Below, piece after piece: positions 4,389 through 52,107 of a stretch of DNA of 52,107 nucleotides. The position numbers and the translations under genes are program-made. Below the pieces are notes generated by a model. It had not been told where the DNA came from. It saw only the letters and a list, made by a program, of their open reading frames with translations, and did not search any database. The DNA is taken from the NCBI GenBank assembly GCA_015064415.1, contig SVSG01000014.1, forward strand, positions 1 through 52,107, read 5' to 3'. Numbering within the stretch: position 1 is the first letter of the stretch; each line of letters begins with the position of its first letter. Source of the stretch: Oscillospiraceae bacterium (GTDB taxonomy: Bacteria > Bacillota > Clostridia > Oscillospirales > CAG-272).

Positions 4389-6623
4389 ATGATGGAATAT
4401 GCACAATGGGAAGGATTTGCGGGCAAGGAATGGAAGGAATCCATCAACGTCCGTGATTTTATTCAGAATAACTACACCCCCTACGAGGGAGACAGCAGCT
4501 TCCTCGCAGGCCCCACCGCGCGCACGAATGAATTGATGGAAAAGTTCCGCGCGCTGCTGGCCGAGGAGGTCAAGAACGGCGGCCTTCTGGACATCGACAC
4601 CGAGACCGTCTCCTCGCTTGCCAACTATGCCCCCGGCTATCTGGACAAGGAAAAGGAGCTGATCGTGGGTCTGCAGACCGACGCGCCCCTGAAGCGCGGC
4701 GTGCACCCCTTCGGCGGCATCCGCATGGCACGCTCTGCCTGCGCCGCCTACGGCTATCAGCTCTCGGATAAAATCGAGGAGGCGTTCCACTACCGCACCA
4801 CGCACAACGACGGCGTGTTCCGCGCCTACACCGATGAGATGCGTGCCGCACGCCACATCGGCATCATGACGGGTCTGCCCGACGCTTACGGCCGCGGCCG
4901 TATCATCGGTGACTACCGCCGCGTGGCACTGTACGGCGTGGATGCGCTGATCGAGCAGAAGAAGGCGGACAAGCAGCAGTACGGCACGTTGCTGATGAAC
5001 CAGGAGAACATTCAACTGCTGGAGGAGATCGCCCGCCAGATCGACTTTCTTGGCAAGCTCAAGAAAATGGCGGAAAGCTATGGCTTTGACATCAGCCAGC
5101 CCGCTACGAACGCCCGCGAGGCGATCCAGTGGACCTACTTCGGGTATCTGGCCGCCATCAAGGAGCAAAACGGCGCCGCCATGTCGATGGGCCGCGTCAG
5201 CACCTTCTTTGATATTTACATCCAGCGCGACATCGAGCGCGGCATCCTTACCGAGGAGAGCGCCCAGGAGCTGATCGACGATTTCGTAATGAAGCTTCGC
5301 ATGGCGCGCCTCCTGCGCACGCCTGAGTACAACGAGCTGTTCGGCGGCGACCCCATGTGGATCACCGAAAGCGTGGGCGGTATGGCCATTTCCGGCAAGA
5401 CGCTGGTCACCAAATCCTCGTTCCGTGTTCTGCATACGCTTTACAACCTCGGCTCCGCGCCCGAGCCCAACCTCACGGTCCTGTGGTCCGAGCATCTGCC
5501 CGAGGGCTTTAAGAAATTCTGCGCGCAGGTCTCGATCGACACCGACTCCATCCAGTACGAGAGCGATGATCTGATGCGCCCCGAGTACGGCGACGATTAC
5601 GGCATTGCCTGCTGCGTGTCCGCGATGCGCATCGGCAAGCAGATGCAGTTCTTCGGCGCGCGTTGCAACCTGCCCAAGCTCCTTTTGCTTGCCCTCAACG
5701 GCGGCTATGACAACATGACCGGAGTGAAGATCGGCCCGCAGTTCGAGCCGTACGTGGGCGACGTGCTGGATTACGAGGCCGTGACCTCCCGCTTCAAGGT
5801 ATATCTGGAGTGGCTGTGCCGCCTGTACGTGAACACGATGAACGTCATTCACTTCATGCACGATAAGTATGCGTATGAGAAGATCCAGATGGCGTTGCAC
5901 GATACCAAGGTGGAAAGACTGATGGCCTTTGGCGTTGCGGGACTTTCCGTGATCACCGACTCGCTTTCCGCCATCAAGTTCGCAAAAGTCCACCCCGTTC
6001 GCGACGAAAACGGTTATATTGTGGATTTTGAAACCGAGGGCGACTTCCCCAAATACGGCAACGATATCGACGACGTGGACGATATTGCGCGCGGCATGCT
6101 CTCCGACGTGATCACCGAGCTGCGCAAGACCCCGACCTACCGCAACGCGGTGCATACGCTCTCCGCGCTCACCATCACCTCGAACGTGGTGTACGGCAAG
6201 AAGACCGGCTCCACCCCCGACGGGCGCAAAAAGGGTGAACCCTTTGCCCCCGGCGCCAACCCGATGCACAACCGCGAGCAGAACGGCGCACTCGCCTCGC
6301 TCAACTCGCTGGCTAAGATGCCCTATGATTGCTGCCGCGACGGCATTTCCAACACCTTCTCGATCGTGCCCGAGGCACTTGGTCGTGACAAGGCGGATCG
6401 CGTGAACAATCTGGTCAACATTCTGGACGGCTATTTCATCCAGCACGCGCATCACATCAACGTCAACGTCCTCAACAAGGAGACGCTGATGAAGGCATAC
6501 GAGCATCCCGAGGAATACCCGAATCTGACCATCCGCGTGTCCGGCTACGCCGTACACTTCAACAAGCTCTCGCGCGAGCAACAGCGCGAGGTCATCAGCC
6601 GCACCTTCCACGAGGTTCTTTGA
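4389..6623 (+). CDS. pflB: pyruvate formate-lyase (formate C-acetyltransferase)
   Basis: 744 residues, the normal length. This glycyl-radical enzyme converts pyruvate and CoA to acetyl-CoA and formate in anaerobic fermentation. The thiyl-radical pair is visible as Cys408-Cys409 in [12 protein letters not shown], and the glycyl radical site is Gly719 in [11 protein letters not shown] near the C-terminus. DYRRVALYG and PNLTVLWS are also typical of true PFL rather than of diol or glycerol dehydratases. The start has an AAGGAGG site 9 nt upstream. It is followed with a 1-nt overlap by its activase and preceded by a ZTP riboswitch, so its formate is probably tied to one-carbon and purine demand as well as to energy metabolism. 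Confidence 0.96.
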
Positions 6624-12821: not shown

Positions 12822-14151
12822 ATTTGTCGCGTTCGATGCAATCCCGCTTCAGGGCGTTGAGAAAGCCCGTGGAGCTGAAGATGCGGTACTCGCCCACCTT
12901 GGTGCCCGTATCGATGGGGCGGTGCCATCTGTCATTGCCCGCCGAGATCGTCTTTGGCACAGGTGCCACGATGCAGATCTTGGTGTGCTCGCTCTCAAAG
13001 CCGAAATCATACTCGCTGGTAAAGGTGAAAAACTCCACCCGACGGAAGCGGAAGGCGCGGCGGATCTGCAACGTGCCGTTTTCGTGAAAATACATTTCCC
13101 AATGGCGGCGCGTGGCGCCGAACAGCTTGCAATCATACGTCTTGCCATTGGCGCAAAGCGTGAGGTTTGCCCCGTCGCGGTAGCGCAGAAGCGAGGCGTA
13201 TGGACGCTTCTTTTTCAGGATGGTAAAACCGTATTCGCGGCATACGGTATGCAGATTTTTGAACAATCTGCGCCGAATGCGGAAGGCGCGAAGGTAAGCG
13301 AACAACCAAAATCCACCGATCACCGCAAGCAAAAGTGCCGCCGGCAACCACCAGCGCAGGGTGCCGATCTTCACAAGAATGGCACCGAAAGAGATCAACA
13401 CGGGCACGAACAAATACAGCCCGAAGCCGCCGAAGGCGTAGATGCCGAACACCCACAAAAGCTGCAGGAAAAAACTCTTTTTTCGGTTCTCTCGGCGCAA
13501 CCACGCGCGCCCCTCGGCGCTGATGGTCTCCACGCTGTCATTGGCAACGACCATCGACGCGCCCATGGAATGTGCCGCCCACTGCCCGCGCGCCATCGTA
13601 TCCATCACCATATCGGGGCCACTCTTTTCGGGAGCTGTGGGCTGCGCGAACACGGGAGCATCGTCCATATATTTTTGCCACGCGGACAGCCGCGCCCACA
13701 AAAGAAGGCAAAGGAAAAGCGGCAGGGCGACGGCGCAAAGCAGTAAGCTACGCAAAATACGCGGGAGCGCAAGCCCCGAAAAAAGCATCGCGTTCACGTG
13801 ATACAACCCCGCCTCGAAGGGCAGAAGCGCCGCCAGCGCCAACACAACGCCCGCGTCGATCCAGAACACGCGTGTGCAAAGCACCGCGCGCACGCGCGCC
13901 CACAATCCTTGCGCGCCGGTAGCGGCAAGCATGGCGTTGCCCTCGTCATCCTGTTCCGCAAACACACGCGACACGCTGAAAAAGATAAAGGGCATGAAAA
14001 TCGCCGCCGTCACCGTCACGAAAAGCTCCTTTACGTGAAAAGCGGCCATCGTCAGCATGCAGATCGCCCAGATCAGCAAAAAAACGGGATAAAGCGCAAA
14101 GGCGCGGAAGTAGCGCATAAACACGGGGAGATATTTTTTCCAATCCTCCAT
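12820..14151 (-). CDS. polytopic membrane protein with cytoplasmic C-terminal domain, function unknown
   Basis: 443 residues, start after GGAGGGTGACGG. Hydrophobic segments at about 13-34, 40-62, 96-118, 129-151, 228-250 and 262-285 give roughly six membrane spans. Between spans 4 and 5 is a hydrophilic stretch (about 160-225). After a basic patch (RAFRIRRRLFKNL) the last 140 residues form a soluble, strand-rich domain with many aromatic residues. No enzyme motif is visible and I recognise no family. It has its own promoter and stands alone between convergent and co-directional envelope genes. Confidence 0.75.
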   Translation of the reverse strand: MEDWKKYLPVFMRYFRAFALYPVFLLIWAICMLTMAAFHVKELFVTVTAAIFMPFIFFSVSRVFAEQDDEGNAMLAATGAQGLWARVRAVLCTRVFWIDAGVVLALAALLPFEAGLYHVNAMLFSGLALPRILRSLLLCAVALPLFLCLLLWARLSAWQKYMDDAPVFAQPTAPEKSGPDMVMDTMARGQWAAHSMGASMVVANDSVETISAEGRAWLRRENRKKSFFLQLLWVFGIYAFGGFGLYLFVPVLISFGAILVKIGTLRWWLPAALLLAVIGGFWLFAYLRAFRIRRRLFKNLHTVCREYGFTILKKKRPYASLLRYRDGANLTLCANGKTYDCKLFGATRRHWEMYFHENGTLQIRRAFRFRRVEFFTFTSEYDFGFESEHTKICIVAPVPKTISAGNDRWHRPIDTGTKVGEYRIFSSTGFLNALKRDCIERDK

Positions 14152-18322: not shown

Positions 18323-20137
18323 TTATACGTCCATGATGACGGGCAGGATCATCGGCTTGCGTCCCGTTTTGCGGAACAGGAAGCGATACAGCTCGTCACG
18401 TACGCGCGTTTTCAGCTGCATGCGGTCACCGATCTTGCCGGAGGAAAGGGTCGAGATCAGCAGGCGTTGCACAACGCGACGCGCCTCCTCCATCAAGGGC
18501 TCGTTATCGCGCACGTACACAAAGCCGCGCGAGATCAGCTCGGGGCCGGAAAGCAGCAGTCGGCTTTCCTCATCCACGGTGGCGACCACCACGATGAGAC
18601 CGTCCTGCGAGAGCAATCTGCGGTCGCGAAGCACGGCGCTGCCCACGTCACCGACGCCATAGCCGTCGATCAGCACCTGACCTGCAGGCACCACACCGGA
18701 AAAACGTGCGCCCTTCGCATCGATCTCCAAGACCTTACCGATCTCGGAAATGAAGATATTGGCATCCGGTACGCCCATTTCCTGCGCCAGCTCACGGTGT
18801 GCCGCCAGATGGCGGGATTCGCCGTGGATCGGCATAAAGTAGCGGGGCTTGGTCAGCGCCAGCATCAGCTTCAGCTCCTCGCGGCAGGCGTGACCGGAAA
18901 CGTGCACGTCCATATCGTTGTCATGCAATACGCTGACACCGTTGCGGGACAGCTCGTTGATGACGCGGCCCACCAGCTTCTCGTTGCCGGGAATGGCACT
19001 GGAGGACAGCACCACCAGATCGTTTTGACCAAGCGTCACCTGATTGTGATCCGAATAGGCCATGCGGTAAAGCGCGGACATCGGCTCACCCTGGCTGCCC
19101 GTTGTGATCAACGTGAGCTGCTCGGGCTTGAAGCGCTTGGCCTCGCTGATATCGACCAACACGTCCTTCGGCACCTTCATATAGCCAAGCTCGACGGCGG
19201 CGCCCACGATATTCAACATGCTGCGCCCCGTGATGGCCACCTTGCGGCCATGCTGTGCGCTGATGTCGATGATCTGCTGTACGCGATGCACGTTCGAGGA
19301 GAATGTGGCGATCACGATGCGCTTTTTGGGGTTGGAGGTGAAGATATACTCCAGCGATCTTCCCACCAGCTTTTCGGAGGGGGTATAGCCCGGACGCTCT
19401 GCGTTGGTGGACTCACCAAGCAGCATCAGCACGCCCTCCTGGCCAAGCTCTCCCAAGCGGGTGATGTTCATCATCTCCCCTTGAATGGGGGTGAGGTCCA
19501 ATTTATAGTCACCCGTGTGGATCACGGTGCCAAGCGGCGTATGGATCGCAAGGCAGCAGGCATCCGCGATCGAGTGATTGACGCGGATGAACTCCACGCT
19601 GATCTCGCCCGCAGACACGGTGTCGCCTGCGTTGACGGTGCGGAAGTCGGGGGCGAAGGGCAAGGAATGCTCCTCCAGCTTGTTTTTTATGATGCCAAGC
19701 GTCAGCTTGGTGCCAAAGATCGGCGGTTGGATGCTGCGCAACACGTAAGGCAGGGCACCGATGTGGTCCTCATGCCCGTGCGTGAGAAAGATACCGCGCA
19801 AGCGGTCGGCGTTCTGCTCCAGATAGGTAATATCCGGAATGACCAGATCCACGCCCAGCATATCCTCCTCGGGAAATGCCAGTCCGCAATCCACCACGAT
19901 CATGTCCTTTTCATATTCGATCACCGTCAGGTTTTTGCCGATCTCCTGCAAGCCGCCAAGCGGAATGACACGGATCTTGCCCTTTGGCTTCAGCAGCTTG
20001 GCCGAGGTCGCCGACTGGGACTTTCGCACGTGCTTGGGCGCACGTGGCTTTTCTGCCTTGGGGGCACGCGGGGGCTTTTCCTGCTTCGGTGCACGTACTG
20101 CTCGTTGTTTGGTTGTTTTTTGCGTTGTTTGAGGCAT
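18323..20137 (-). CDS. rnj: ribonuclease J
   Basis: 604 residues. The metallo-beta-lactamase/beta-CASP RNase J has 5'-3' exonuclease and endonuclease activity in mRNA decay and rRNA maturation. The metal site HGHEDHIG lies at 120-127 within IFLTHGHEDHIGALPYVL; HTGDYKLD, STNAERPGYTPSE and HVSGHACREEL are further signatures, and the C-terminal domain ends in KPMILPVIMDV. The first 48 residues are a basic, Pro/Ala/Lys-rich disordered tail absent from Bacillus RNase J, perhaps for RNA or ribosome contact. The ATG at 20137 follows GAAAGGAGAATTT. Confidence 0.95.
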   Translation of the reverse strand: MPQTTQKTTKQRAVRAPKQEKPPRAPKAEKPRAPKHVRKSQSATSAKLLKPKGKIRVIPLGGLQEIGKNLTVIEYEKDMIVVDCGLAFPEEDMLGVDLVIPDITYLEQNADRLRGIFLTHGHEDHIGALPYVLRSIQPPIFGTKLTLGIIKNKLEEHSLPFAPDFRTVNAGDTVSAGEISVEFIRVNHSIADACCLAIHTPLGTVIHTGDYKLDLTPIQGEMMNITRLGELGQEGVLMLLGESTNAERPGYTPSEKLVGRSLEYIFTSNPKKRIVIATFSSNVHRVQQIIDISAQHGRKVAITGRSMLNIVGAAVELGYMKVPKDVLVDISEAKRFKPEQLTLITTGSQGEPMSALYRMAYSDHNQVTLGQNDLVVLSSSAIPGNEKLVGRVINELSRNGVSVLHDNDMDVHVSGHACREELKLMLALTKPRYFMPIHGESRHLAAHRELAQEMGVPDANIFISEIGKVLEIDAKGARFSGVVPAGQVLIDGYGVGDVGSAVLRDRRLLSQDGLIVVVATVDEESRLLLSGPELISRGFVYVRDNEPLMEEARRVVQRLLISTLSSGKIGDRMQLKTRVRDELYRFLFRKTGRKPMILPVIMDV

Positions 20138-20276
20138 AAATTCTCCTTTCTTCTGAATTGAAAAGCGGCAAAGCGACAGGGCGCGTACCACGCTCCCGCG
20201 CGCTGTCTGTGTTCACCGTTCAAACGGGATCGCCGCAAAGGGATCACCGTTAAAAAATCAAATCACTATTCATATT

Positions 20277-20305
20277 ATTATACACAATATTTGCGCGATT
20301 GTCAA
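20277..20305 (-). promoter_or_regulatory. promoter for ribonuclease J
   Basis: On the minus strand: TTGACA, 17 nt, TATAAT, leaving a leader of about 130 nt before the start codon. Confidence 0.8.
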
Positions 20306-20309
20306 GACT

Positions 20310-20570
20310 TTATACAAGGATTATCAGCATAACTACCCCCAAAAGCAAAGATCCCAGCAAAAAACCCGCCAAAAACGGTAAAAAACCGCTTTTTTTGCGC
20401 CTTCGCAAAAAATATCCTCGCCCCTCCTCCACGATGCGGTTGCCCTCCGCCAGCATATCCCCGCGCGCTGTGGGGGCGCGCCCTGCCCGCAGCACGAAAT
20501 AGGCGCTTTCAAAAAGCGGGCTTTCCTTGGTTTGCAGCACGATCATTTCTCTTTGGCATCCTTTGATCAT
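20310..20570 (-). CDS. small single-pass membrane protein, function unknown
   Basis: 86 residues from an ATG with GGAGGACGCAT upstream. The N-terminal 60 residues are hydrophilic, with an RRRKK patch, and the C-terminal 24 residues (GFLPFLAGFLLGSLLLGVVMLI) form one membrane helix, so it is tail-anchored. It is immediately upstream of the RNase J gene on the same strand, with the RNase J promoter starting beyond its 3' end. No family recognised. The clean ribosome binding site supports a real gene. Confidence 0.6.
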   Translation of the reverse strand: MIKGCQREMIVLQTKESPLFESAYFVLRAGRAPTARGDMLAEGNRIVEEGRGYFLRRRKKSGFLPFLAGFLLGSLLLGVVMLIILV

Positions 20571-20737
20571 ATGCGTCCTCCTTTTTGCCAATTCTCACCA
20601 TTATCTTAACCCGTTCTTACACTTTTCAATCACGCAAAGCAAGAAAACGGCGTTTTGACAGCTTTCGACACGCTTTGCCGCTAACGCGGCGTTTTTACCA
20701 TAAAATGTTAATATTCCATAAATTACCAAAAAATTGC

Positions 20738-20766
20738 TTGACAAACAAGCTTCGACAGATTATACT
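20738..20766 (+). promoter_or_regulatory. promoter for the AbrB-type regulator
   Basis: TTGACA at 20738-20743, 17 nt, TATACT at 20761-20766. Confidence 0.8.
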
Positions 20767-20817
20767 ATAAGTGCGAGTCGAAAAACCGCTATAAAAAAAC
20801 AAAAAGGAGGAAACACT

Positions 20818-21060
20818 GTGAAATCTACCGGAGTGACACGTCAAATCGATGAGTTGGGGCGCTTTGTGCTTCCTGTTGAGATCAGACGCGCCTTGCACAT
20901 CAACCTGAAGGATTATATCGAAATTTATACCGAAAACGACCGGATCATTTTGAAAAAGTACCAGCCCGCATGCCTGTTTTGCGGCAACACCGAGGACAAC
21001 GAGACCTTCGAGGGCAAGCGCATTTGCCGCGCGTGCCTTGATAAGCTGAAAAATATCTGA
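20818..21060 (+). CDS. AbrB/SpoVT-type transition-state regulator with C-terminal zinc finger
   Basis: 80 residues with a GTG start after AAGGAGGAAACACT. The N-terminal swapped-hairpin domain is clear: KSTGVTRQIDELGRFVLPVEIRRALHI, as in AbrB and SpoVT. After residue 50 follows a CLFC...CRAC module (Cys52, 55, 70, 73), a four-cysteine zinc knuckle common in clostridial AbrB homologues but absent from Bacillus AbrB. It likely binds AT-rich promoters as a tetramer and controls growth-phase or sporulation genes. It forms a single-gene transcript with its own promoter and terminator. Confidence 0.93.
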   Translation: MKSTGVTRQIDELGRFVLPVEIRRALHINLKDYIEIYTENDRIILKKYQPACLFCGNTEDNETFEGKRICRACLDKLKNI

Positions 21061-21103
21061 AAGTGCCCAAACGGTACGAGAAAACGCGATCCCCCGAACA
21101 GCG

Positions 21104-21144
21104 AAAAAAGCACCCGAAAGCAAAATGCTTTCGGGTGCTTTTTT
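21104..21144 (+). terminator. intrinsic terminator after the AbrB-type gene
   Basis: An 18-bp stem (AAAAAAGCACCCGAAAGC / GCTTTCGGGTGCTTTTTT) with a 5-nt loop. Confidence 0.92.
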
Positions 21145-21379
21145 GCGCGAAATGTGGCTTCTGAGAACAGCAGACAGCTTCGCATTTTTAAAAATGCTCG
21201 TTACACCATTATAGCAAGCGGACGCCATAGTGCTTTCCCGCAAAGCAAGTGCCGACATCCTCATCCACCGCTATCGCGGTCCCCCTTCCCCCGCTTGGGG
21301 AAGGCCTTTGCGTTACCCGCTTGCATGACAGGCGGTTATCTGCTTTGTACTTCATGCGAAGAATATCTAAAGGAAGGAG

Positions 21380-21662
21380 CAAAATGTGGCGACCGCTCGC
21401 TTTGTCGAACCGCCTCATTTTGATGCAGATGGTGTGGTCTTGCGCGAAGGTGTACGAGGGTACTCCAAATGTCCTCGCTACGCGAGCATGACGATATGCC
21501 GCTTGCGGCAATCGCGGCGGAAGACCGCGACTTATGCGCGAAATGTGGCGACCGCTCACTTCCCCGGGCAGCCTCATTTTGATGCAGATGGTGTGGTCTT
21601 GCGCGAAGGTGTACGAGGGTACTCCGAGCGGAAGACCGCACCTTATGCGCAAAATGTGGCGG
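21380..21662. repeat. intergenic direct repeats of about 87 bp
   Basis: Two copies of a unit starting AAATGTGGCGACCGCTC and ending GTGTACGAGGGTACTCC lie at 21380-21466 and about 21539-21625, nearly identical over the CCTCATTTTGATGCAG... portion. A third partial copy (ATGCGCAAAATGTGGCGG) sits at 21644-21662, and GGAAGACCGC-CTTATGCGC is also doubled. The 520-bp gap 21147-21666 holds no convincing gene. Confidence 0.8.
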
Positions 21663-28173: not shown

Positions 28174-29007
28174 TCAATCGGGAACTTCGGTGTACTTGAC
28201 CTGCTTGATCCAATCGCGCAGCCAAAGCTCGGAGGGCAGGCGCACGCCCATCGTGGAGTTTGCCTCGAAGATCATACCGTCGATGCGGCCCTCTTTGAGC
28301 AGCTCCAGCGCATAGTTGCATTGCAGCTCCATCATCTCAATGGAAACGGGTCTGCGGTTATAAAAATCGTACAGATAGATGCCCAGCAGGATCTTTTTGT
28401 CCTTATATTTTTCCTCGATCGCCTCAAAGCGCTCCTTCAAAAGCGGCAGCTCCTCGGAGTTCCACGTCCAGAATGAAATGCCGTCCACGTAATCCATCAT
28501 ACCCGGGTAGGGATCCTGATGCCAGTACCACGTGATGTAGGTGTCCAGCGGACGGGGGGCTTTTTTCAGATTTTCCTTGACCGTTTTCAGCATTTCCACG
28601 CGCAGGCGGTGACGCTCTTCCTGATCCGGCACCTTGTGGAACGCGCTGGTGACGTCATCCAAAAAGACACCCGTGATATTGGGGTACTTCTCCGCCAGCT
28701 CGCAGACGAAATCCTCCTCGTTGCCCACACGAAATCCTCCCGATCCGGCACTGCCCCACAGCACCTTCTTCATACGGTAAAAGCTTTCCATATATCCCTT
28801 CGCATCCGAGCTGAAGGGCGCGGGCTCGCCGTCACACTGGATAAACAGCACGTTCGGCACGTCCAACATAAACGCCGCCTCTGCGGGGGTGATGCGGGAA
28901 TGGAAAAAATAGGTGGGATTGGTGCCATGCACGACGGGCTTGAGCAGCACGTCATCCTGGTGCGCGCGCACACCGAAGATCCAGAACTTATCTCTTGCTT
29001 GTGCCAT
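28174..29007 (-). CDS. unrecognised cytoplasmic protein, tandem paralogue B
   Basis: 277 residues from the ATG at 29007; upstream in-frame codons lack a ribosome binding site, whereas GAAAGGAAGTTACT precedes this ATG. It shares nearly all motifs of the adjacent paralogue: AHQDD, SRITPAEAAFMLD, GSAGSGGFRVGNEE, FLDDVTSAFH, TWYWHQDPYPG, SFWTWNS and the identical C-terminal KVKYTEVPD. The two diverge most near residues 22-40 (VVHGTNPTYFFH here), a likely specificity loop. A duplication retained with high identity suggests two related substrates. The fold is probably TIM-barrel-like; the function is unknown. Confidence 0.72.
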   Translation of the reverse strand: MAQARDKFWIFGVRAHQDDVLLKPVVHGTNPTYFFHSRITPAEAAFMLDVPNVLFIQCDGEPAPFSSDAKGYMESFYRMKKVLWGSAGSGGFRVGNEEDFVCELAEKYPNITGVFLDDVTSAFHKVPDQEERHRLRVEMLKTVKENLKKAPRPLDTYITWYWHQDPYPGMMDYVDGISFWTWNSEELPLLKERFEAIEEKYKDKKILLGIYLYDFYNRRPVSIEMMELQCNYALELLKEGRIDGMIFEANSTMGVRLPSELWLRDWIKQVKYTEVPD

Positions 29008-29068
29008 AGTAACTTCCTTTCTGCCCTTGGGGCTCAAAAAGATGGGGAAAATCTTACCCCTTGCTCGT

Positions 29069-29097
29069 ATTTTAACACGAACAAGAGCGTGTGTCGA
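29069..29097 (-). promoter_or_regulatory. probable promoter for the tandem paralogue pair
   Basis: On the minus strand: TCGACA, 17 nt, TAAAAT, one mismatch from consensus in each box. Confidence 0.5.
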
Positions 29098-29140
29098 TAT
29101 GAAATCTTCCGTAAAATTATCAAAATTTTCCGTACTTGTG

Positions 29141-29182
29141 AAAAAACTTGCGCGTGTCACATAGCAACACGCGCAAGTTTTT
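29141..29182 (-). terminator. intrinsic terminator after the lipoprotein pair
   Basis: AACTTGCGCGTGT / ACACGCGCAAGTT with flanking A- and T-runs and a 9-nt loop. Confidence 0.88.
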
Positions 29183-29195
29183 CAAATAGATCGTA

Positions 29196-29753
29196 TTATT
29201 CTGTGGGTGCCACGACAGTGAAGTAGGCAACGGCCTCCAACTGCTCTTCGGGAATATAGGCGTTTTCGTCATCGGTAAAGATCCAATACGTGACGCGGAG
29301 ACGATAGGAACCGGCTTTTAAATAGGCATAATGCTTCACAACACTATCCCACACCTCGGGATCATAAAATTTCATACAGATATGACGATCCTTGCGCTCC
29401 AGCGGATCGCCGATCACTCGCTGATACAAGGGTTCTCTTTGTCCCTCGCCACGCACCTCCACCTTGTGCCACGCTCCATCCTGATAAATCTCCAATACGT
29501 CCCTTGCCTCTATACCCACCTTTACATTACTCATAGAATCCACGAAATAGTCAGAATTGTCATGCAATATATATTCCAATTCTTTCACGGGAGCGACCAG
29601 ATTTTGGCTTGTAATGCTAAGCGTTATTGCCGTATTTTGAAAGATACCATCTTCGGCAAAAAATGTGCCGTACTCGGGCTCTTGCTTACTGCAAGAAGCA
29701 AGCGAGGTCAAAAGCATAACGGCGAGCAACAATGTAAAAATCCGTTTTTTCAT
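29196..29753 (-). CDS. Ig-like-fold lipoprotein, tandem paralogue 1
   Basis: 185 residues. Signal peptide MKKRIFTLLLAVMLLTSLASC with lipobox LASC at Cys21. The mature part reads as a small beta-sandwich: YGTFF..DGIFQNTAITLSITSQNLVAPVKELEYILHD, then LEIYQDGAWHKV and AGSYRLRVTYWIF, ending FTVVAPTE. This is the pattern of bacterial Ig-like domains in exported Firmicutes proteins. It is paralogous to the gene upstream, which shares its first 12 residues, the LVAPV core and the FTVVAPTE end. Function unknown; probably a surface or envelope-stress protein. Codon use is more AT-rich than in flanking genes. Confidence 0.75.
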   Translation of the reverse strand: MKKRIFTLLLAVMLLTSLASCSKQEPEYGTFFAEDGIFQNTAITLSITSQNLVAPVKELEYILHDNSDYFVDSMSNVKVGIEARDVLEIYQDGAWHKVEVRGEGQREPLYQRVIGDPLERKDRHICMKFYDPEVWDSVVKHYAYLKAGSYRLRVTYWIFTDDENAYIPEEQLEAVAYFTVVAPTE

Positions 29754-29793
29754 AGCAAGCTCCTTTCATGGTTGTTGGGGGGCAGAACTGGGT

Positions 29794-30339
29794 TTACTCC
29801 GTGGGGGCCACGACGGTGAACTCTACGGTAGGATATATCTGAATTTCCGTCGGCATCAAGATGGGGTAGGTAACGATCAAACGATACTCTCCCGGCTCCA
29901 ATGGAAAATATTCCGCATCGGTTCCAAGCTCAAAAAACACATCTCCCTTACGGACTTTTTGGGGTCTAAAAAAGCTCCATGTATCACGATGAACACGTTG
30001 GATAACTCCCGCCGGTGCTTGCACCCACTCGCCATTTATCTTCATTTCCAAATCTTCATACACATTTTCCATGCTTTGATAACACGCTGATTCATTGTAA
30101 ATATTGTACGATAACTTCGTCACCGGCGCCACCAAGCTTTCGTTGGTAATTTCAACCGTGATAAGATCGTTTTGCAGACGTCCGTTTTCATCCGTGTAAA
30201 GCGTGCCATAATTTTTCGGTTCGGGGGGCGTTTCGTTATCGGACGGCTCAACGTTTGGCACTTCTTCGTGACACGAGAGAAAGGCACACGGGATCAAAAG
30301 TATGACGGCGAGCAACAATGTAAAAATCCGTTTTTTCAT
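29794..30339 (-). CDS. Ig-like-fold lipoprotein, tandem paralogue 2
   Basis: 181 residues. Signal peptide MKKRIFTLLLAVILLIPCAFLSC, with lipid attachment most likely at Cys23. A short acidic Pro-rich linker (EEVPNVEPSDNETPPEPK) precedes one Ig-like domain with YGTLYTDENGRLQNDLITVEITNESLVAPVTKLSYNIY, MKINGEWVQAP, and GEYRLIVTYPIL, ending FTVVAPTE as in its neighbour. The ribosome binding site and the first 36 bases of coding sequence are almost identical to those of paralogue 1, a sign of recent duplication or gene conversion. No binding partner can be deduced. Confidence 0.75.
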   Translation of the reverse strand: MKKRIFTLLLAVILLIPCAFLSCHEEVPNVEPSDNETPPEPKNYGTLYTDENGRLQNDLITVEITNESLVAPVTKLSYNIYNESACYQSMENVYEDLEMKINGEWVQAPAGVIQRVHRDTWSFFRPQKVRKGDVFFELGTDAEYFPLEPGEYRLIVTYPILMPTEIQIYPTVEFTVVAPTE

Positions 30340-30439
30340 AGCAAGCTCCTTTCGTGGTTATCGGGTGCCTCCCACGGCAAAGCCGTGGTAAAATGCCACA
30401 ATAAATAGAGTCGTCTGGGCTTTCGCTTTGTGCAATTTC

Positions 30440-30468
30440 ATTATATCATTCACAAAATCCAAAATCAA
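30440..30468 (-). promoter_or_regulatory. promoter for the lipoprotein pair
   Basis: On the minus strand: TTGATT, 17 nt, TATAAT. The rest of the 30340-30608 gap is AT-rich and holds no gene that I can see. Confidence 0.65.
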
Positions 30469-30607
30469 TATATGAATTGTAAATAATTTCCGTCACATCT
30501 TCACGTGTTCGTCACATTTCGTCTGTCTCTCGTTTACATAATCTCCCCGATCATGAAAAGGCACGCCTTATTCCTCACCCAATGTTTATGGCTCCCTTGG
30601 CAAAAAA

Positions 30608-46430: not shown

Positions 46431-46586
46431 CTCTTTTTCTCGCCCACGCGAGAAAATTCACCCCCACCCAAAACCTTTTTACACAATAAAAGCAGCACTT
46501 ACTTCCTTTGAAAGTAAAAAATCCAAGCAAGGAAAAAGCATTTTCAAGGTTCCCCCTCTTTTTCTCGCCCGTGCGAAAATTTTTTA

Positions 46587-46612
46587 CCCGCCGTCCCGAA
46601 TGACGGCGGGTA
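46587..46612 (-). terminator. intrinsic terminator after the XRE regulator gene
   Basis: CCCGCCGTC / GACGGCGGG with a short loop; on the minus strand it is followed by TAAAAAATTTT. Confidence 0.8.
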
Positions 46613-46617
46613 TTCTT

Positions 46618-46842
46618 TCATCTTAATTTGCGCGGCGTATCGATCATTCCCGCAATATAATCCAGAGAAACATTGTAAAATGAAGCCATTTTTTTCGCAA
46701 ACTCCAGCGGTATATCACAAACGCCCTGCTCATAGCGCGTATAGGTTGTCTTGTTCATATTCAGAATGGCCACCAGCGCATCTTGTGTCAAATCCCTATC
46801 CTCCCGCAGGTCCTTCAATCGATTCTTCAATCTGTCTTGCAT
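46618..46842 (-). CDS. XRE (Cro/C1-type) transcriptional regulator
   Basis: 74 residues, essentially one HTH_3 domain: RLKDLREDRDLTQDALVAILNMNKTTYTRYEQGVCDIPLEFAKKMASFYNVSLDYIAG. The recognition helix is around NKTTYTRYEQG. A GGAGC-type site precedes the ATG. It is divergent from a small gene and the intervening region carries palindromic sites, one of them inside the partner's promoter, so it most likely represses that promoter and perhaps its own. The gene pair is more AT-rich than its surroundings, consistent with an acquired module. Confidence 0.9.
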   Translation of the reverse strand: MQDRLKNRLKDLREDRDLTQDALVAILNMNKTTYTRYEQGVCDIPLEFAKKMASFYNVSLDYIAGMIDTPRKLR

Positions 46843-46865
46843 ACCAAGCTCCTCATTTTTTGATA

Positions 46866-46949
46866 CTCAAATTATAATATATTTTTTTGAAAAAGCCTTG
46901 ACAATGCTCAAATTTGAGTATACAATAAAAGAAACTACCCATATTTGAG
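46866..46949 (+). promoter_or_regulatory. XRE operator cluster and promoter of the small gene at 46967
   Basis: TTGACA at 46898-46903, 17 nt, TACAAT at 46921-46926. A perfect palindrome CTCAAATTTGAG (46907-46918) occupies the spacer. Half-sites CTCAAAT (46866) and ATTTGAG (46943-46949) flank it, giving an array with spacing of about 35-41 bp. Confidence 0.75.
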
Positions 46950-46966
46950 AATTCGGAGGTTTTAGT

Positions 46967-47221
46967 ATGACAGAAGATCAAATCAAGGAAAAGCTTTTGA
47001 AAGCAAGAGACAACATCAATACTTCCATACGAAATTTGCGCATCGACAGAATTGTGTTCTTTATGCTTGAATATTTGATGCAAGATGCAGATATGCCTTT
47101 TCAAATAAATGATAGTGATAAATATGCTTTCTTTTTACAGGCAAATGCGAATTTTGCCAATGATCTAAAAACGCTTTACACCGCTTGGAAGGAATTAGAG
47201 GAGCTTCAAGATATATCTTGA
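46967..47221 (+). CDS. small protein of unknown function, partner of the XRE regulator
   Basis: 84 residues with a strong site (CGGAGGTTTTAGT). It is mostly helical with no signal peptide or membrane helix: KEKLLKARDNINTSIRNLRIDRIVFFMLEYLMQDADMPFQINDSDKYAFFLQANANFANDLKTLYTAWKELEELQDIS. An amphipathic helix containing IDRIVFFMLEYLM is central. I do not recognise a family. The divergent, operator-controlled arrangement resembles toxin-antitoxin or small phage-type switch pairs, but nothing in the sequence proves toxicity. Confidence 0.65.
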   Translation: MTEDQIKEKLLKARDNINTSIRNLRIDRIVFFMLEYLMQDADMPFQINDSDKYAFFLQANANFANDLKTLYTAWKELEELQDIS

Positions 47222-47228
47222 GCTCCTC
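47198..47228 (+). terminator. hairpin at the end of the small gene
   Basis: GAGGAGC-T-TCAAGAT / ATCTTGA-GCTCCTC spans the stop codon. The T-run after it is weak, so termination is only probable. Confidence 0.5.
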
Positions 47229-47470
47229 TTCCAATGTGTATTATCTCTCCATACAGCGTGATATGCTTGACACAGACACGTCGCGGTCCCCCTCGCTTTG
47301 CAAGCACGCCGAACGTCCTCGCACGGCGAGAACGTCACCCCTTCGGGATGCGTGTGCCACTTCGCGGCAATCGCGGGATGCCATTCCCTACGGGTTTGTG
47401 TTTTTTGCCAAATCAAGCGGCCCAAGCACTCAAAAAGTCCAAAATCAAAGGTTTTCTCCTCATTCTCACC

Positions 47471-47499
47471 TTGCATTTTGTGCGAACAAGTGTTATAAT
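47471..47499 (+). promoter_or_regulatory. promoter for the GH109-like gene
   Basis: TTGCAT at 47471-47476, 17 nt, TATAAT at 47494-47499. The gap before it (47229-47470) has no convincing gene and loosely resembles the repeat-rich gap near 21.3-21.6 kb. Confidence 0.7.
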
Positions 47500-47530
47500 G
47501 AAGTCAAATCACCCCCGGGAGGAACAGAAA

Positions 47531-48913: not shown

Positions 48914-48989
48914 TGGTGCACCTTCAGGGATTCGAACCCGGGACCCACTGATTAAGAGTCAGTTGCTCTACCAACTGAGCTAAAGGTGC
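48914..48989 (-). tRNA. tRNA-Lys (anticodon CUU)
   Basis: A 76-nt cloverleaf with encoded CCA. Acceptor GCACCTT pairs with AAGGTGC; the D-arm is GCTCAGTTGGTAGAGC; the anticodon loop CTCTTAA is closed by CTGA/TCAG, giving anticodon CTT; the T-arm contains GGTTCGAATCC. Confidence 0.97.
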
Positions 48990-49012: not shown

Positions 49013-49041
49013 ATTATACCACTTTTCCCCTTACTTGTCAA
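49013..49041 (-). promoter_or_regulatory. promoter for tRNA-Lys
   Basis: On the minus strand: TTGACA, 17 nt, TATAAT, 23 nt before the tRNA. It marks the last host sequence before the putative integrated element. Confidence 0.85.
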
Positions 49042-49085
49042 TAGTTTTTTTGAAAAAAGTTCTCTTTTGTGAAGTTTATAATGTT

Positions 49086-49131
49086 GAGTGAATAGAAAAT
49101 CCGTTCCTGTGTGCGGAGGTTCTGTTCACTC
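49086..49131 (+). other. long hairpin with symmetrical internal loops
   Basis: GAGTGAA/TTCACTC (7 bp), a 2x2 loop, GAA/TTC (3 bp), a 2x2 loop, TCCG/CGGA (4 bp) and a 10-nt apical loop, followed by TTCCTTTTTT. A TATAAT lies just upstream at 49077-49082. A second hairpin CAGCTTC/GAAGCTG spans 49142-49163. It could be a small RNA or terminator, or a single-strand replication or packaging signal of the element. The gap 49042-49304 otherwise has no clear gene. Confidence 0.5.
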
Positions 49132-49246
49132 TTCCTTTTTTCAGCTTCTGTGCCCCGAAGCTGGGACGTGTGCGTTGGCAGAACGCTCGCGTTTTATCTC
49201 CGGCCGCGAGTGAGGGCATTGTACTCATTCCCCCCCTTATAAATAC

Positions 49247-49287
49247 AATGCCGTATAGGTTTGTAGATAAATTTAATGCCGCATAGG
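49247..49287 (+). repeat. 13-bp direct repeats before the first element gene
   Basis: AATGCCGTATAGG (49247-49259) and AATGCCGCATAGG (49275-49287) are spaced 28 bp start to start, just upstream of the ribosome binding site at about 49290. They are candidate regulator sites. Confidence 0.5.
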
Positions 49288-49304
49288 CGAAAGGAGAAAA
49301 AACA

Positions 49305-49535
49305 ATGACGGTAAAATTTTTCAAAAAGACCGGTACCTACAATGACAAGGAGACCGGCAAGGAAAAGCGATTCACGAATTTTTACGTGGAATGCGGAGAC
49401 AAGCTGATTCCGGTGGAACCGGTGTATTTTCCGAATCCTCAGTTTGAAAATCGCGATCCCCAGTACCAGGGTCGCAAGGCAGTTCTGGAAGCTTTTGCAG
49501 AGGAGTTGCCCGCCAAAGAAGGTGCCTCCGCTTGA
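49305..49535 (+). CDS. small protein of the integrated replicon, unknown (possible ssDNA-binding)
   Basis: 76 residues, start after GAAAGGAGAAAAAACA. Charged, strand-rich: VKFFKKTGTYNDKETGKEKRFTNFYVECGDKLIPVEPVYFPN. The small size, basic N-terminal half with alternating aromatic residues, and position before the replication origin would suit a small OB-fold single-strand DNA-binding protein, but I recognise no family and this is a guess. Its stop codon overlaps the next start (TTGA), implying coupled translation. Composition matches the Rep gene more than the host. Confidence 0.65.
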   Translation: MTVKFFKKTGTYNDKETGKEKRFTNFYVECGDKLIPVEPVYFPNPQFENRDPQYQGRKAVLEAFAEELPAKEGASA

Positions 49536-49726
49536 CGCGTTTTGTTTCTTTTTCAACGTCAACCGGGGATTTTGTTGGTTTCAACATTACTGAGTTGGCA
49601 ATGTTTTGTACAACGAAAAAAGGTGTCCGGCTCCTTATGAAAGACGGATCCTATTACGATGTGCAAGAAGACTTTTCCACCGTCCTGAATGCCTTACTTT
49701 CCGCTTCTTCTAACCAAGAAAAATAA
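49532..49726 (+). CDS. small protein of the integrated replicon, unknown
   Basis: 64 residues with a TTG start that overlaps the previous stop by 4 nt. The sequence FVSFSTSTGDFVGFNITELAMFCTTKKGVRLLMKDGSYYDVQEDFSTVLNALL looks like a compact beta-beta-beta-alpha unit, loosely reminiscent of LytTR or FlbD-type small domains. No motif is decisive. It ends just before the iteron region and is probably cotranscribed with its upstream partner. There is no ATG start option that would keep most of the sequence. Confidence 0.55.
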   Translation: MTRFVSFSTSTGDFVGFNITELAMFCTTKKGVRLLMKDGSYYDVQEDFSTVLNALLSASSNQEK

Positions 49727-49739
49727 AATCCTGAAAAAA

Positions 49740-49936
49740 GGTGGAAAAGGTGGAAAACACAGTTCCAAAAACAAGGAAAAGCGGTCAAGTGAAAAACCGC
49801 TGAAAACCTTGGGAAATCTGACAAAAAGGTGCGAAGCACCACGCGGCGCTGGGGGCTTGTCCCAGCGCCGCGGCAAAAGGTGGAAAAACAAGGGAAAAAG
49901 GTGGAAAAATTCCACCTTCGACCGTAGGTTTCCACC
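49740..49936 (+). other. putative rolling-circle replication origin: iterons plus tandem hairpins
   Basis: GGTGGAAAA occurs at 49740-49748, 49749-49757 (head to tail), 49879-49887 and 49900-49908. Inverted TTCCACC copies lie at 49910-49916, forming a palindrome with the fourth copy, and at 49930-49936. Between them are two hairpins: GGTGC-GAA-GCACC (49828-49840) and a perfect 12-bp stem CGCGGCGCTGGG/CCCAGCGCCGCG with loop GGCTTGT (49842-49872). Iterons beside a strong stem-loop immediately upstream of a rep gene are the standard arrangement for HUH Rep origins; the nick site is presumably in the 7-nt loop. Confidence 0.72.
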
Positions 49937-49991
49937 GTTTGACGTGAGCGAGTAACAAAATACATATTGTTTTGAGTTCAGGGGGGTAAAA

Positions 49992-51077
49992 ATGAAGTTA
50001 AAACAGTATGAGGTTGTTTCAAATGTAGAATTTTTTAAAGAACCTATCCGTGACACGTTGAAGCGTTATCGTACGATTAAAAAATGGGCTTTTGTTTTGC
50101 ACGATAAAGATCCGGATGAGACACCTCATTATCACATTTATCTGAATTTTGGAAATTCCGGTGTGGATTCCAAAGTAGTTGCCGGTTGGTTTGGGCTTCA
50201 AGAATCACAAGTTAGTAAGATCTTGGGGCGCAATACGGATATGTTTCAATATCTGACCCATAGTCAACCATCACAAAAACACAAGTATCAATATTCTCCC
50301 TCTGAAGTTGTTGCCAATTTTGATATTGAAAGCGAGATTGAGCAATCCAAAATTTTGGGAGATTTCAAAAAATATTCCTATGCACAACAGCTGGAATACA
50401 TCGATTCATTGCCGGTGTCAGAAAAAACGGTTGCTTTTACCAAGCTTCAAAATCTCTGGAAATTGCATTGTCAATGTATGATGCTGGATCCGGAACGCAA
50501 CGTGGAAGTGGTATTCATCCAAGGCAAGGGTGGAGCCGGCAAAACATATTATGCCAAAAAGTTTTTAAAATCTCTGGGGTACGATTATTGTATTTCCTCT
50601 TCCTCCAATGATCCTTTTCAGGATTATCTTGGACAAAAGGCAATGATCCTTGATGATTTGCGTGATCGCACCTTTGAGTTTGAGGATTTGTTGAAAATTC
50701 TTGATAACAATACGGCAAGCTCGGTACGATCAAGATTTTCAAACAAAGTATTTAACGGGAAAATGATCGTGATCACCTCAACCGTGCCGCTTTCTTACTG
50801 GTATATGCAGTATCGATACAGTGATTTTGATACGTTGAATCAGTTGTATCGCCGCATATCTTGTTATGTGGTGGTGGAGCCGGAAACGGTGAAGGTGTAC
50901 GAAAAGATAGATGATCGCGGCCGCCCGGTCGGGGTGCCGTGGTTGTATAAAAACGAGCTTTCGAAAGCGAAAAAGGAAGAGCGCACCAAAACGGACTTTG
51001 GAGCAGCGTTTGGAAAAATATGCGAGGACGCCGTTCCGGAGTTTCTCGATCAGATGTCTGCAAAAAAGAATACTTGA
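49992..51077 (+). CDS. replication initiator: HUH endonuclease fused to SF3-like helicase (pCRESS/Rep_2 type)
   Basis: 361 residues. The N-terminal nickase has motif 1 FVLHDKD (33-40), the HUH motif HYHIYL (His46, His48) and a catalytic tyrosine in DMFQYLTH (Tyr87), followed by NFDIES, as in pMV158 RepB and related Rep_2 plasmid proteins. The C-terminal part is a P-loop helicase: Walker A GKGGAGKT (178-185), Walker B MILDD (218-222) and sensor-like motif C ITST (261-264). This fusion is the architecture of bacterial pCRESS plasmids and, by descent, of eukaryotic CRESS-DNA viruses. It would nick the upstream origin and unwind it for rolling-circle replication. AT-rich coding contrasts with the host. 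Confidence 0.9.
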   Translation: MKLKQYEVVSNVEFFKEPIRDTLKRYRTIKKWAFVLHDKDPDETPHYHIYLNFGNSGVDSKVVAGWFGLQESQVSKILGRNTDMFQYLTHSQPSQKHKYQYSPSEVVANFDIESEIEQSKILGDFKKYSYAQQLEYIDSLPVSEKTVAFTKLQNLWKLHCQCMMLDPERNVEVVFIQGKGGAGKTYYAKKFLKSLGYDYCISSSSNDPFQDYLGQKAMILDDLRDRTFEFEDLLKILDNNTASSVRSRFSNKVFNGKMIVITSTVPLSYWYMQYRYSDFDTLNQLYRRISCYVVVEPETVKVYEKIDDRGRPVGVPWLYKNELSKAKKEERTKTDFGAAFGKICEDAVPEFLDQMSAKKNT

Positions 51078-51094
51078 TCAAAGGAGAACCGATT

Positions 51095-51130
51095 ATGAGA
51101 TGGCGTTCGCGTGGTCATCCCTGGAGGTGA
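51095..51130 (+). CDS. 11-codon ORF after rep (leader or micro-peptide)
   Basis: ATG after AAAGGAGAACCGATT encodes MRWRSRGHPWR and stops at 51130. The ribosome binding site is as good as those of the flanking genes. Its role is unknown; it may be a real basic micropeptide or a translational leader for the next gene, which starts 49 nt downstream. Confidence 0.4.
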   Translation: MRWRSRGHPWR

Positions 51131-51179
51131 CCGAAAAAATCTGATCCAAAAAACAACATAAAGAAAAGGAGTATTTCAC

Positions 51180-51746
51180 ATGGCAAGAAAATTTCGTTTG
51201 CGCGGGCGCACGCGCACTATTCTGATGGCAATTGCCATCATCCTCGTAACCGTTACGATCGTAGGCGGCATTTCGGTTCTTTCCGGTGCCAACAAAAATT
51301 TCTTCAAGCCGAGCGAATGGGAGCTTCGCACGGTCAATGAAGATAACCTGTATCAGCTCGCCAATTTCAAGGACACCGATGGCGTCATCGAAAGCGGTAA
51401 AGAAGGTATTTCGGTAAAGGTTGTTGATGACAACGTGATCAAGGTAAGCGGTACCGCTGAGACCGCCAAAACCATTGCAATTGGTACAGTTGTTCTTGAG
51501 GCCGGAAAGTCTTATGTGTTCGATAGCTCTTTCGAGGGTACCGGCAAGACGATGTATATGCAGCTGATCAAGGACAGTACCGCGCATAACTGCTACGGTG
51601 AACCGGTTGTATTCTCTGTGACCGAGACCACTACGTTCACCATCAATTTGATCATCGCCGATGAATATGAGATCGGCAACGTATCTCTGAAGCCCGTCAT
51701 TTGCGTTGGCGAAAGCGCAGATGATCTCGTCAGCTTCTACGAATAA
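51180..51746 (+). CDS. membrane-anchored exported protein of the integrated replicon
   Basis: 188 residues, start after AAAAGGAGTATTTCAC. A very basic N-terminus (MARKFRLRGRTRT) precedes one hydrophobic segment (about 14-34), so the rest is probably outside the cell as a type II membrane protein or after cleavage. The exterior part (from about 45) is a strand-rich domain with ISVKVVDDNVIKVSGTAETAKTIAIGTVVLEAGKSYVF and TTTFTINLIIADEYEIGNVSLKPVICVGES, like a small beta-sandwich (carbohydrate- or surface-binding type). In a filamentous-phage-like element it could be a virion or receptor-binding protein; on a plasmid, a surface protein. Undetermined. Confidence 0.72.
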   Translation: MARKFRLRGRTRTILMAIAIILVTVTIVGGISVLSGANKNFFKPSEWELRTVNEDNLYQLANFKDTDGVIESGKEGISVKVVDDNVIKVSGTAETAKTIAIGTVVLEAGKSYVFDSSFEGTGKTMYMQLIKDSTAHNCYGEPVVFSVTETTTFTINLIIADEYEIGNVSLKPVICVGESADDLVSFYE

Positions 51747-51758
51747 AGTAGGCACTTT

Positions 51759-51792
51759 AAGGCCTGTGACCTATCAGGTCACAGGCCTTTTT
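51759..51792 (+). terminator. intrinsic terminator inside the integrated replicon
   Basis: AAGGCCTGTGACCT / AGGTCACAGGCCTT with an ATC loop and TTT. Confidence 0.9.
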
Positions 51793-51809
51793 CTGATAGG
51801 AGTGAATGT

Positions 51810-52107
51810 ATGAAAAAAATATTATTTATTATGCTCGTGATCATGCTCTTGGCGGCGGCTTTGGGTGCTCTCGGTGAGTTTCCCTCGTGGCTGGATGGTT
51901 TGTGGGATATAAATATCAGCGGTGGCGGTAGTTTCCCGGAGCCGCCTGTAGATAATACGTGTAAAGTGTGCGGCAAAGACCCTTGCATCTGCAATTCCGA
52001 GCCGCCTGTAGATAATACGTGTAAAGTGTGCGGCAAAGACCCTTGCATCTGCGATCCCGAGCCGCCTGTAGATAATACGTGTAAAGTGTGCGGCAAAGAC
52101 CCTTGCA
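51810..52107 (+). CDS. secreted Cys-rich repeat protein (truncated by window end)
   Basis: Open from ATG 51810, preceded by TAGGAGTGAATGT, to the window edge with no stop. A signal peptide MKKILFIMLVIMLLAAALGALG is followed by FPSWLDGLWDINISGGGSFP and then 20-residue repeats EPPVDNTCKVCGKDPCICNS, each with four cysteines (C-x2-C-x4-C-x-C). Two full units and most of a third are visible (51939-51998, 51999-52058, 52059 on), nearly identical at the DNA level. The Cys pattern suggests a metal-binding or disulphide-knotted bead separated by Pro-rich linkers. Function unknown; possibly a surface fibre, adsorption or colicin-like protein of the element. Confidence 0.75.
   Translation, partial: MKKILFIMLVIMLLAAALGALGEFPSWLDGLWDINISGGGSFPEPPVDNTCKVCGKDPCICNSEPPVDNTCKVCGKDPCICDPEPPVDNTCKVCGKDPC
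51939..52107 (+). repeat. 60-bp tandem repeats within the Cys-rich gene
   Basis: Units begin GAGCCGCCTGTAGATAATACG and differ only at the end (AATTCC versus GATCCC). The array continues past the window. Confidence 0.95.

Follow-up and report, generated by a model that had tools for sequence, protein, structure and literature searches.

The locus next to tRNA-Lys

We analysed a stretch of 52,107 bases (the window), which is the whole of contig C9, one of 43 contigs in a 2.25-Mb metagenome-assembled genome (MAG) of an Oscillospiraceae bacterium. The last 3,039 bp of the window hold one end of an integrated replicon with a Rep of the circular Rep-encoding single-stranded DNA (CRESS) type, and this end is likely the first part of an element of about 17 kb that continues on another contig of the MAG, C30. 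A preliminary description, made from the window alone, had proposed such an integrated replicon beside a tRNA-Lys gene, together with an abrupt break in composition and gene style, and both proposals stand. From about position 49,070 on, composition, gene style and skew differ from the preceding sequence: the GC content, 0.58-0.60 at 47.5-49 kb, drops to 0.45 and further to 0.41 across 49-51 kb, and the GC skew becomes positive.

The features of the element in the window are collected in Table 1. Two tiny overlapping open reading frames (ORFs), an origin with iterons and a hairpin, and a fused HUH-SF3 Rep had been read from the letters by the preliminary description, and each of them was recovered here. 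Rep matches PF01719 (4.3e-11) and PF00910 (1.8e-8); among 20 aligned Reps the YLxH motif, Walker A (GxGKT) and Walker B (DD) are invariant, while the second His of the HUH motif is kept in 19. An HUH endonuclease with YLxH as motif III fused to an SF3 helicase is the architecture that defines the YLxH supergroup of the pCRESS plasmids, and Rep has it. The closest named Reps are those of phytoplasma plasmids with 32-37% identity; inovirus Reps align over the endonuclease half only. The AAGGTGGAA/TTCCACCTT hairpin of the origin region is also present in three related loci (L019, L023 and L049), and 41 of 45 loci have a GGCT(T/C)GT loop no more than 499 bases ahead of Rep. At the eight loop-proximal stem positions 281 of 328 cells are paired; shuffling gave a mean of 225 and a maximum of 248, in a control which ignores relatedness, a few of the 45 loci being near copies of one another. 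Downstream of Rep, the membrane-anchored protein and the secreted Cys-repeat protein of the earlier description were likewise confirmed.

Table 1. Positions of the element's features and of its left flank in the window.
Feature	Position	Strand	Remarks
tRNA-Lys gene	48914-48989	-	
Host promoter of tRNA-Lys	49013-49041	-	TTGACA 49041-49036, 17-bp spacer, TATAAT 49018-49013; points away from the element
17-bp direct repeat, predicted target duplication	49052-49068		second copy at C30 14113-14129
Left terminal inverted repeat	49069-49093	+	18/25 match to the right end, C30 14088-14112
Inward TATAAT, predicted -10 of circle-junction promoter	49077-49082	+	comparable hexamer in 15/15 left ends
A76, 76-aa ORF	49305-49535	+	conserved; opens the replication operon
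B64, 64-aa ORF	49532-49726	+	4-bp overlap with A76; kept in a subset of relatives
Iteron-like GGTGGAA repeats	49733-49909	+	around the origin
Predicted double-strand origin hairpin	49842-49872	+	12-bp stem, loop GGCTTGT, GC-rich
CRESS-type Rep	49992-51077	+	HUH endonuclease (PHYHIYLNF, YLTH) and SF3 helicase
11-aa candidate frame	51095-51130	+	micropeptide of the preliminary description; in frame with ORF 51020-51130
188-aa protein	51180-51746	+	basic N-terminus, one N-terminal transmembrane segment, ectodomain; homolog in the same place in L062
Terminator-like perfect hairpin	51759-51789	+	
Signal-bearing Cys-repeat protein, start	51810-52107	+	runs to the window end; likely continues at C30 1-2729 (908 aa) via the 60-bp repeat

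The rest of the contig has a GC content of mostly 0.50-0.63. A second low-GC patch (0.42) lies at 46500-47500 and contains a Cro/C1-type helix-turn-helix gene (46618-46842, minus strand) with a divergent 84-aa ORF (46967-47221); more dips (0.44-0.48) are seen at 29000-30500 and 20000-21500.

Probable two ends of one element

Contig C9 ends within a 60-bp tandem repeat of the Cys-repeat gene, and in the MAG this repeat is confined to the C9 end and the first 240 bases of C30. The units at 1-240 of C30 (locus L010) and at 51936-52107 of the window are near-identical, which is probably why the assembly broke at this point, and they may hide further copies. On C30 a Cys-repeat frame runs to position 2,729 and is followed by a 181-aa transmembrane protein, by S649 (649 aa, with a signal and a C-terminal transmembrane segment), a 30-aa peptide with a single transmembrane segment (5349-5441), a 777-aa membrane-anchored ATPase and small basic proteins. 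The opposite strand encodes a Zn-ribbon, endonuclease-like protein that matches phage Holliday-junction resolvases (phrog_9019, 5e-11) and an ArdC-type anti-restriction protein. The final gene, ending at 14,082, encodes an IS30 transposase (NF033563 above its cut-off, Pfam HTH_38 and rve below theirs), which is likely the element's own.

Both halves are framed by a direct repeat and by imperfect inverted repeats (window 49052-49093, C30 14088-14129). The direct repeat reads GAAAAAAGTTCTCTTTT, and directly inside its two copies the inverted repeats have an exact 11-bp core in common, GTTGAGTGAAT; the 25-bp register with its 18 matches was counted by hand. Judged from the sequence, this arrangement is the signature of insertion by a transposase, and the element shares with the IS30 family the combination of an IS30 transposase with terminal inverted repeats. 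The match between the end repeats is independent of the Cys repeat and supports reading C9 and C30 as the two ends of one element, with a length of 3,039 + 14,112, that is at least 17,151 bases. The preliminary description had seen neither an integrase nor a Zot-type ATPase in the visible part of the element and had pointed beyond the contig end for them and for a second copy of the left boundary. Both candidate genes do sit on C30, as the transposase and an ATPase whose best structural match is the N-terminal domain of Zot, and a second copy of the 17-bp repeat marks the right boundary.

The separation of C9 and C30 in the assembly could also mean that they are parts of two elements with a common repeat, the window's own being a short plasmid-like unit similar to L019, which has the closest Rep of our genome scan (79%) and is only 5.6 kb long. 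We consider this very improbable, since the 17-bp direct repeat and the inverted ends match between the contigs, only one Rep and one ATPase were found in the genome, and a syntenic empty site exists: in genome G637 of the same genus, about 1.1 kb with a single ORF separates tRNA-Lys from a homolog (42%) of the right-flank gene, and no element is present. The right-flank gene encodes a large secreted protein (C30 14194-17394), with a 30% paralog at 7689-10841 of contig C20 of genome G000.

Direct repeats and a circular form in related loci

Direct repeats of 14-20 bp were found in 15 of the 18 loci for which both ends are at hand. Their sequence differs at each locus, and we therefore take them for target duplications and not for a shared att core. 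IS30 target duplications usually measure 2-3 bp, far less than the repeats found here, and in this respect the element departs from the family. L041 and L026 lack a clean pair of direct repeats, and the sets used for the ends and promoters omit them (15 of 17 kept); the eighteenth locus, L029, shows no direct repeat of ≥10 bp, but its contig stops 135 bases past the transposase. Complete elements span 5.6 to 18.9 kb. The IS30 transposase was detected in 21/24 and 13/24 of the genomes searched (some genomes are counted under two handles); the transposase stretches L087-L091 lie on contigs other than those of the Rep loci and stand outside the analyses of the ends.

The preliminary description had suggested a search for free circular forms, and a homologous circle does exist. 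Locus L085 is a contig of 13,154 bases with an exact terminal overlap of 141 bases, which closes to a circle of 13,013 bases. Its IS30 gene runs from one contig end into the other, and ahead of the replication genes the two ends of the element are joined as TTGACA-N17-TAAAAT. A circular intermediate with abutted ends, as is typical for IS30, is thereby seen in a relative and not for the window's copy. The same contig could also arise from a tandem copy in the chromosome, though a free circle is the simpler reading. Ordinary host genes right after the Cys-repeat gene, absence of any free homologous element or a lack of a compositional break had been named in advance as findings that would speak against a replicon, and none of the three was encountered. 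That the element is an integrated, transposase-mobilised rolling-circle replicon is a strong conclusion.

Insertion upstream of promoters

The promoter of tRNA-Lys has no mismatch in 12 consensus positions, and its -35 box begins 10 bp outside the direct repeat. The element does adjoin tRNA-Lys, as first described, on the 5' (promoter) side; given an insertion 10 bp upstream of the -35 box, this is not an integration into the 3' end of a tRNA, and the relevance of tRNA-Lys seems confined to its near-consensus promoter. A sigmaA-type promoter (≤2 mismatches in 12, spacer of 17 or 18 bp) reads away from the left end in 14 of the 15 elements, the exception being L044 with 3 mismatches. The distance from the repeat to the start of the -35 is 9-12 bp in six of them (the window, L062, L023, L046, L025 and L019) and 17-21 bp in the other eight. 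Among 2,000 random windows of matching length 83 have ≤2 mismatches, and of the 15 flanks one does so when its opposite strand is read; a first control, with windows shorter than the flanks, gave 21 of 2,000. The genes next to the left ends are diverse and include tRNA-Lys (window), tRNA-Leu (L046), tRNA-Gly (L053) and tmRNA (L038) as well as rpoB (L050), L33 followed by nusG (L037), hrcA (L062), an aminotransferase (L023) and a Na/H exchanger (L025); L056 is close to the L3 gene with about 0.7 kb in between. Targeting of regions upstream of promoters is well supported at the level of sequence. Insertion at a fixed distance upstream of sigmaA promoters, the mark of TnGBS-type elements, is shared by 14 of the 15, and our literature search yielded no report of such targeting by the IS30 family.

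A predicted promoter split between the two ends

At all 15 right ends an outward TTGACA (11) or TTGACT (4) lies 1-6 bp from the repeat, and at all 15 left ends an inward TATAAT (6), TATACT (5), TAATAT (3) or TATTCT (1) is found 6-10 bp inside. Counted by hand, the distance from the -35 to the repeat, the repeat itself and the distance from the repeat to the -10 add up to 29-31 bp in the 15 elements. If the ends were joined with a few bases between them, the -35 of the right end and the -10 of the left end would form a promoter with a spacer of about 17 bp reading into A76, B64 and Rep. Such a split junction promoter is well supported by the end sequences.

This suggests the following life cycle. 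In the integrated state the element would rest between its 17-bp target duplications, just upstream of a near-consensus host promoter, and its operon of A76, B64, origin and Rep would have a -10 at the left end and the matching -35 at the right end, some 17 kb distant, which would leave the replication genes poorly expressed. Upon excision the IS30 transposase would join the ends into a circle and set the -35 and -10 at the 17-bp spacing read in L085. Rep would then nick the loop of the GGCTTGT hairpin and its SF3 domain unwind the DNA for rolling-circle replication, as is expected from its family. The ATPase, the 30-aa transmembrane peptide and the protein with a signal and a C-terminal transmembrane segment may serve as an extrusion and adsorption module, and re-integration would take place upstream of another sigmaA-type promoter.

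The putative export module

The preliminary description had argued from the surface genes for more than a bare plasmid, and the ATPase, surface proteins and transposase found alongside Rep agree with this. Production of a virion is likely from the gene content, and the main support for the module as a virion export system comes from L046 (8915-20085, a Clostridia MAG from sheep colon), which has a Rep with 64% identity, the same kind of ends and target, and the transposase. In the slot of the module L046 carries an 82-aa coat-like protein (amphipathic N-terminus, transmembrane segment and RRR end, recognised by eye), a 630-aa protein with a signal and a transmembrane segment, small transmembrane proteins, and a 302-aa ATPase with 35.7% identity to Zot of bajarodino virus 71 (tblastn, E 4e-35), which Pfam and PHROGs did not recognise. 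L046 carries an inovirus Zot module, and the chassis therefore serves an inovirus-type element.

Several observations set limits to this reading. The 777-aa ATPase with its N-terminal transmembrane segments is not recognisable as pI/Zot by sequence profile, and none of the element's proteins was identified as a major coat protein, for which reasons virion production is still something we infer. Peptides of the 30-aa transmembrane type, which in the element precedes the ATPase, were sought in 20 loci, and 10 of these have a candidate; two candidates differ from the others, and none is shown to be a coat protein. The main reason for caution is L019 (9182-14760), an element of 5.6 kb with a Rep of 79% identity and an IS30 transposase that has neither the ATPase nor S649; it is possibly a satellite or a stripped form of the family. 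By membership criteria the element is not classed as an inovirus.

An element of this content might instead be a transposase-mobilised rolling-circle plasmid or conjugative-type element, with a coupling-protein-like DNA pump and adhesins that join cells in place of a virion. This appears unlikely: the best structural match of the ATPase, the Zot N-terminal domain, exceeds the best coupling protein by 1.5 Z units, no VirB4-like, relaxase or type IV secretion gene was present among the element proteins scanned (part of the C30 ORFs), and in L046 the same slot holds a recognisable inovirus module. A membrane-vesicle virus similar to plasmaviruses or pleolipoviruses, with the C-terminally anchored, beta-rich S649 as spike and the ATPase aiding budding, would agree with the spike-like layout of S649, with an element size and circularity similar to the plasmavirus type, and with ORF1 of Acholeplasma phage L2 as the top match in a viral library (E 0.016, TM 0.15; not significant). 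Searched with profiles of Rep, ATPase and S649, 12 of the 14 ORFs of phage L2 gave no convincing relative (best 5.4 bits); a Walker A motif is absent from all 12, and L046 points towards filamentous phages. The homology to phage L2 proteins that defines the Plasmaviridae is thus lacking over the 12 ORFs compared, and we hold a vesicle virus to be quite improbable.

The inovirus-like reading is the one we follow. Taken together, we assign a probability of roughly 0.6 to an element of at least 17.1 kb that moves by an IS30 transposase, replicates as a rolling circle by a CRESS-type Rep and likely leaves the cell as an inovirus-like particle.

The module varies in further loci. A contig of IMG/VR (L092, 4964-13149) carries the same export module, with the ATPase and an S649-like protein, and no CRESS Rep in the stretch at hand, an instance of module exchange. 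The ATPase gene of L062 (15344-17665) lies on the opposite strand with the other parts in the usual order, and in a strain of Pumilibacter muris (L053, 17883-20041) the ATPase is split into two overlapping ORFs.

Distribution of the family

The family is widespread but sparse. The protein database contains 1,065 Rep homologs (E 1e-3 or better) and at least 1,569 ATPase homologs. Our scan of GTDB genomes for Rep gave 46 loci, most of them in MAGs titled Clostridia and including two cultured Pumilibacter strains, P. intestinalis CLA-AA-M10 (L050) and P. muris CLA-AA-M08 (L053); Rep is matched in 7 out of 196 host-family genomes and the ATPase in 4 of 391 genomes across the class, the MAG itself included in both. 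In the viral catalogue searched no Rep was confirmed and one ATPase contig was found, so virus catalogues seem to miss the family. A distant Rep (34% over part of its length) lies in a Treponemataceae MAG on a contig of 3,456 bases (L064, 1-3456) with a terminal repeat of 141 bases, i.e. a circle.

Comparison with known systems

The element resembles Inoviridae/Tubulavirales in its rolling-circle Rep, in the order of replication genes, membrane proteins, anchored adsorption-like protein and ATPase, and in the forms of circle and provirus; it differs in the 777-aa ATPase with N-terminal transmembrane segments, which is not Zot by sequence, and in having no identified major coat protein. In the portion of Roux 2019 (PMC6813254) drawn on here, one inovirus Rep family, iPF_00203, has an SF3 domain, and Enterocloster inoviruses of gut Clostridia measure 6.5-8.5 kb, with one of 16 kb, in the excerpt cited from PMC10061712. 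With pCRESS4-8, as far as the cited text of Kazlauskas 2019 (PMC6668415) goes, the element has in common the YLxH HUH-SF3 Rep and integration into bacterial chromosomes. The same text states that no pCRESS element encoded homologs of known viral structural proteins; unlike these, L046 has a Zot homolog and the window's element an export-type module. It further describes the Spiroplasma inoviruses of the genus Vespertiliovirus as tied to IS30 or IS3 transposases, without a Rep and replicating by transposition, whereas the window's element has both Rep and transposase.

With regard to target choice, the cited sections of Guerillot 2014 (PMC3942029) report that TnGBS and some insertion sequences (ISs) of the Mutator superfamily insert ahead of sigmaA promoters, at 15-17 bp from the -35. 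A DDE transposase, insertion upstream of promoters and a circular replicating form are thus shared with TnGBS, ISLre2 and ISKra4 as depicted there; the transposases of the TnGBS group belong to the Mutator superfamily, while that of the window's element is of the IS30 family (NF033563) and outside the Mutator superfamily. In p-MULT 3, as far as its description is quoted here, the right end lies by the promoter, whereas here it is the left end (9-12 or 17-21 bp), in an element with a CRESS-type Rep. For the junction promoter the parallel is IS2, whose Pjunc has an obligate 17-bp spacer according to the cited part of Lewis 2012 (PMC3299598), where the IS30 family is also said to use the circle pathway. 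Pjunc drives the reactions of the transposase in that account, whereas the junction here would read into A76-B64-Rep, i.e. into the replication initiator.

A broader picture, to which we would give about even odds, is that of a family of elements in gut Clostridia, similar to single-stranded DNA phages and built on a split promoter with Rep expression confined to the circle, a promoter-seeking IS30 transposase and interchangeable export modules (inovirus Zot, the new large ATPase, or none). The junction promoter would represent a simple switch between dormancy and replication at the level of DNA, and insertion associated with promoters would extend to a second family of DDE transposases. In such bacterial elements CRESS-type replication would be coupled with a phage-like export module. 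The main pCRESS survey, in the text cited, reported this connection as missing, and it therefore bears on the origin of CRESS-DNA viruses.

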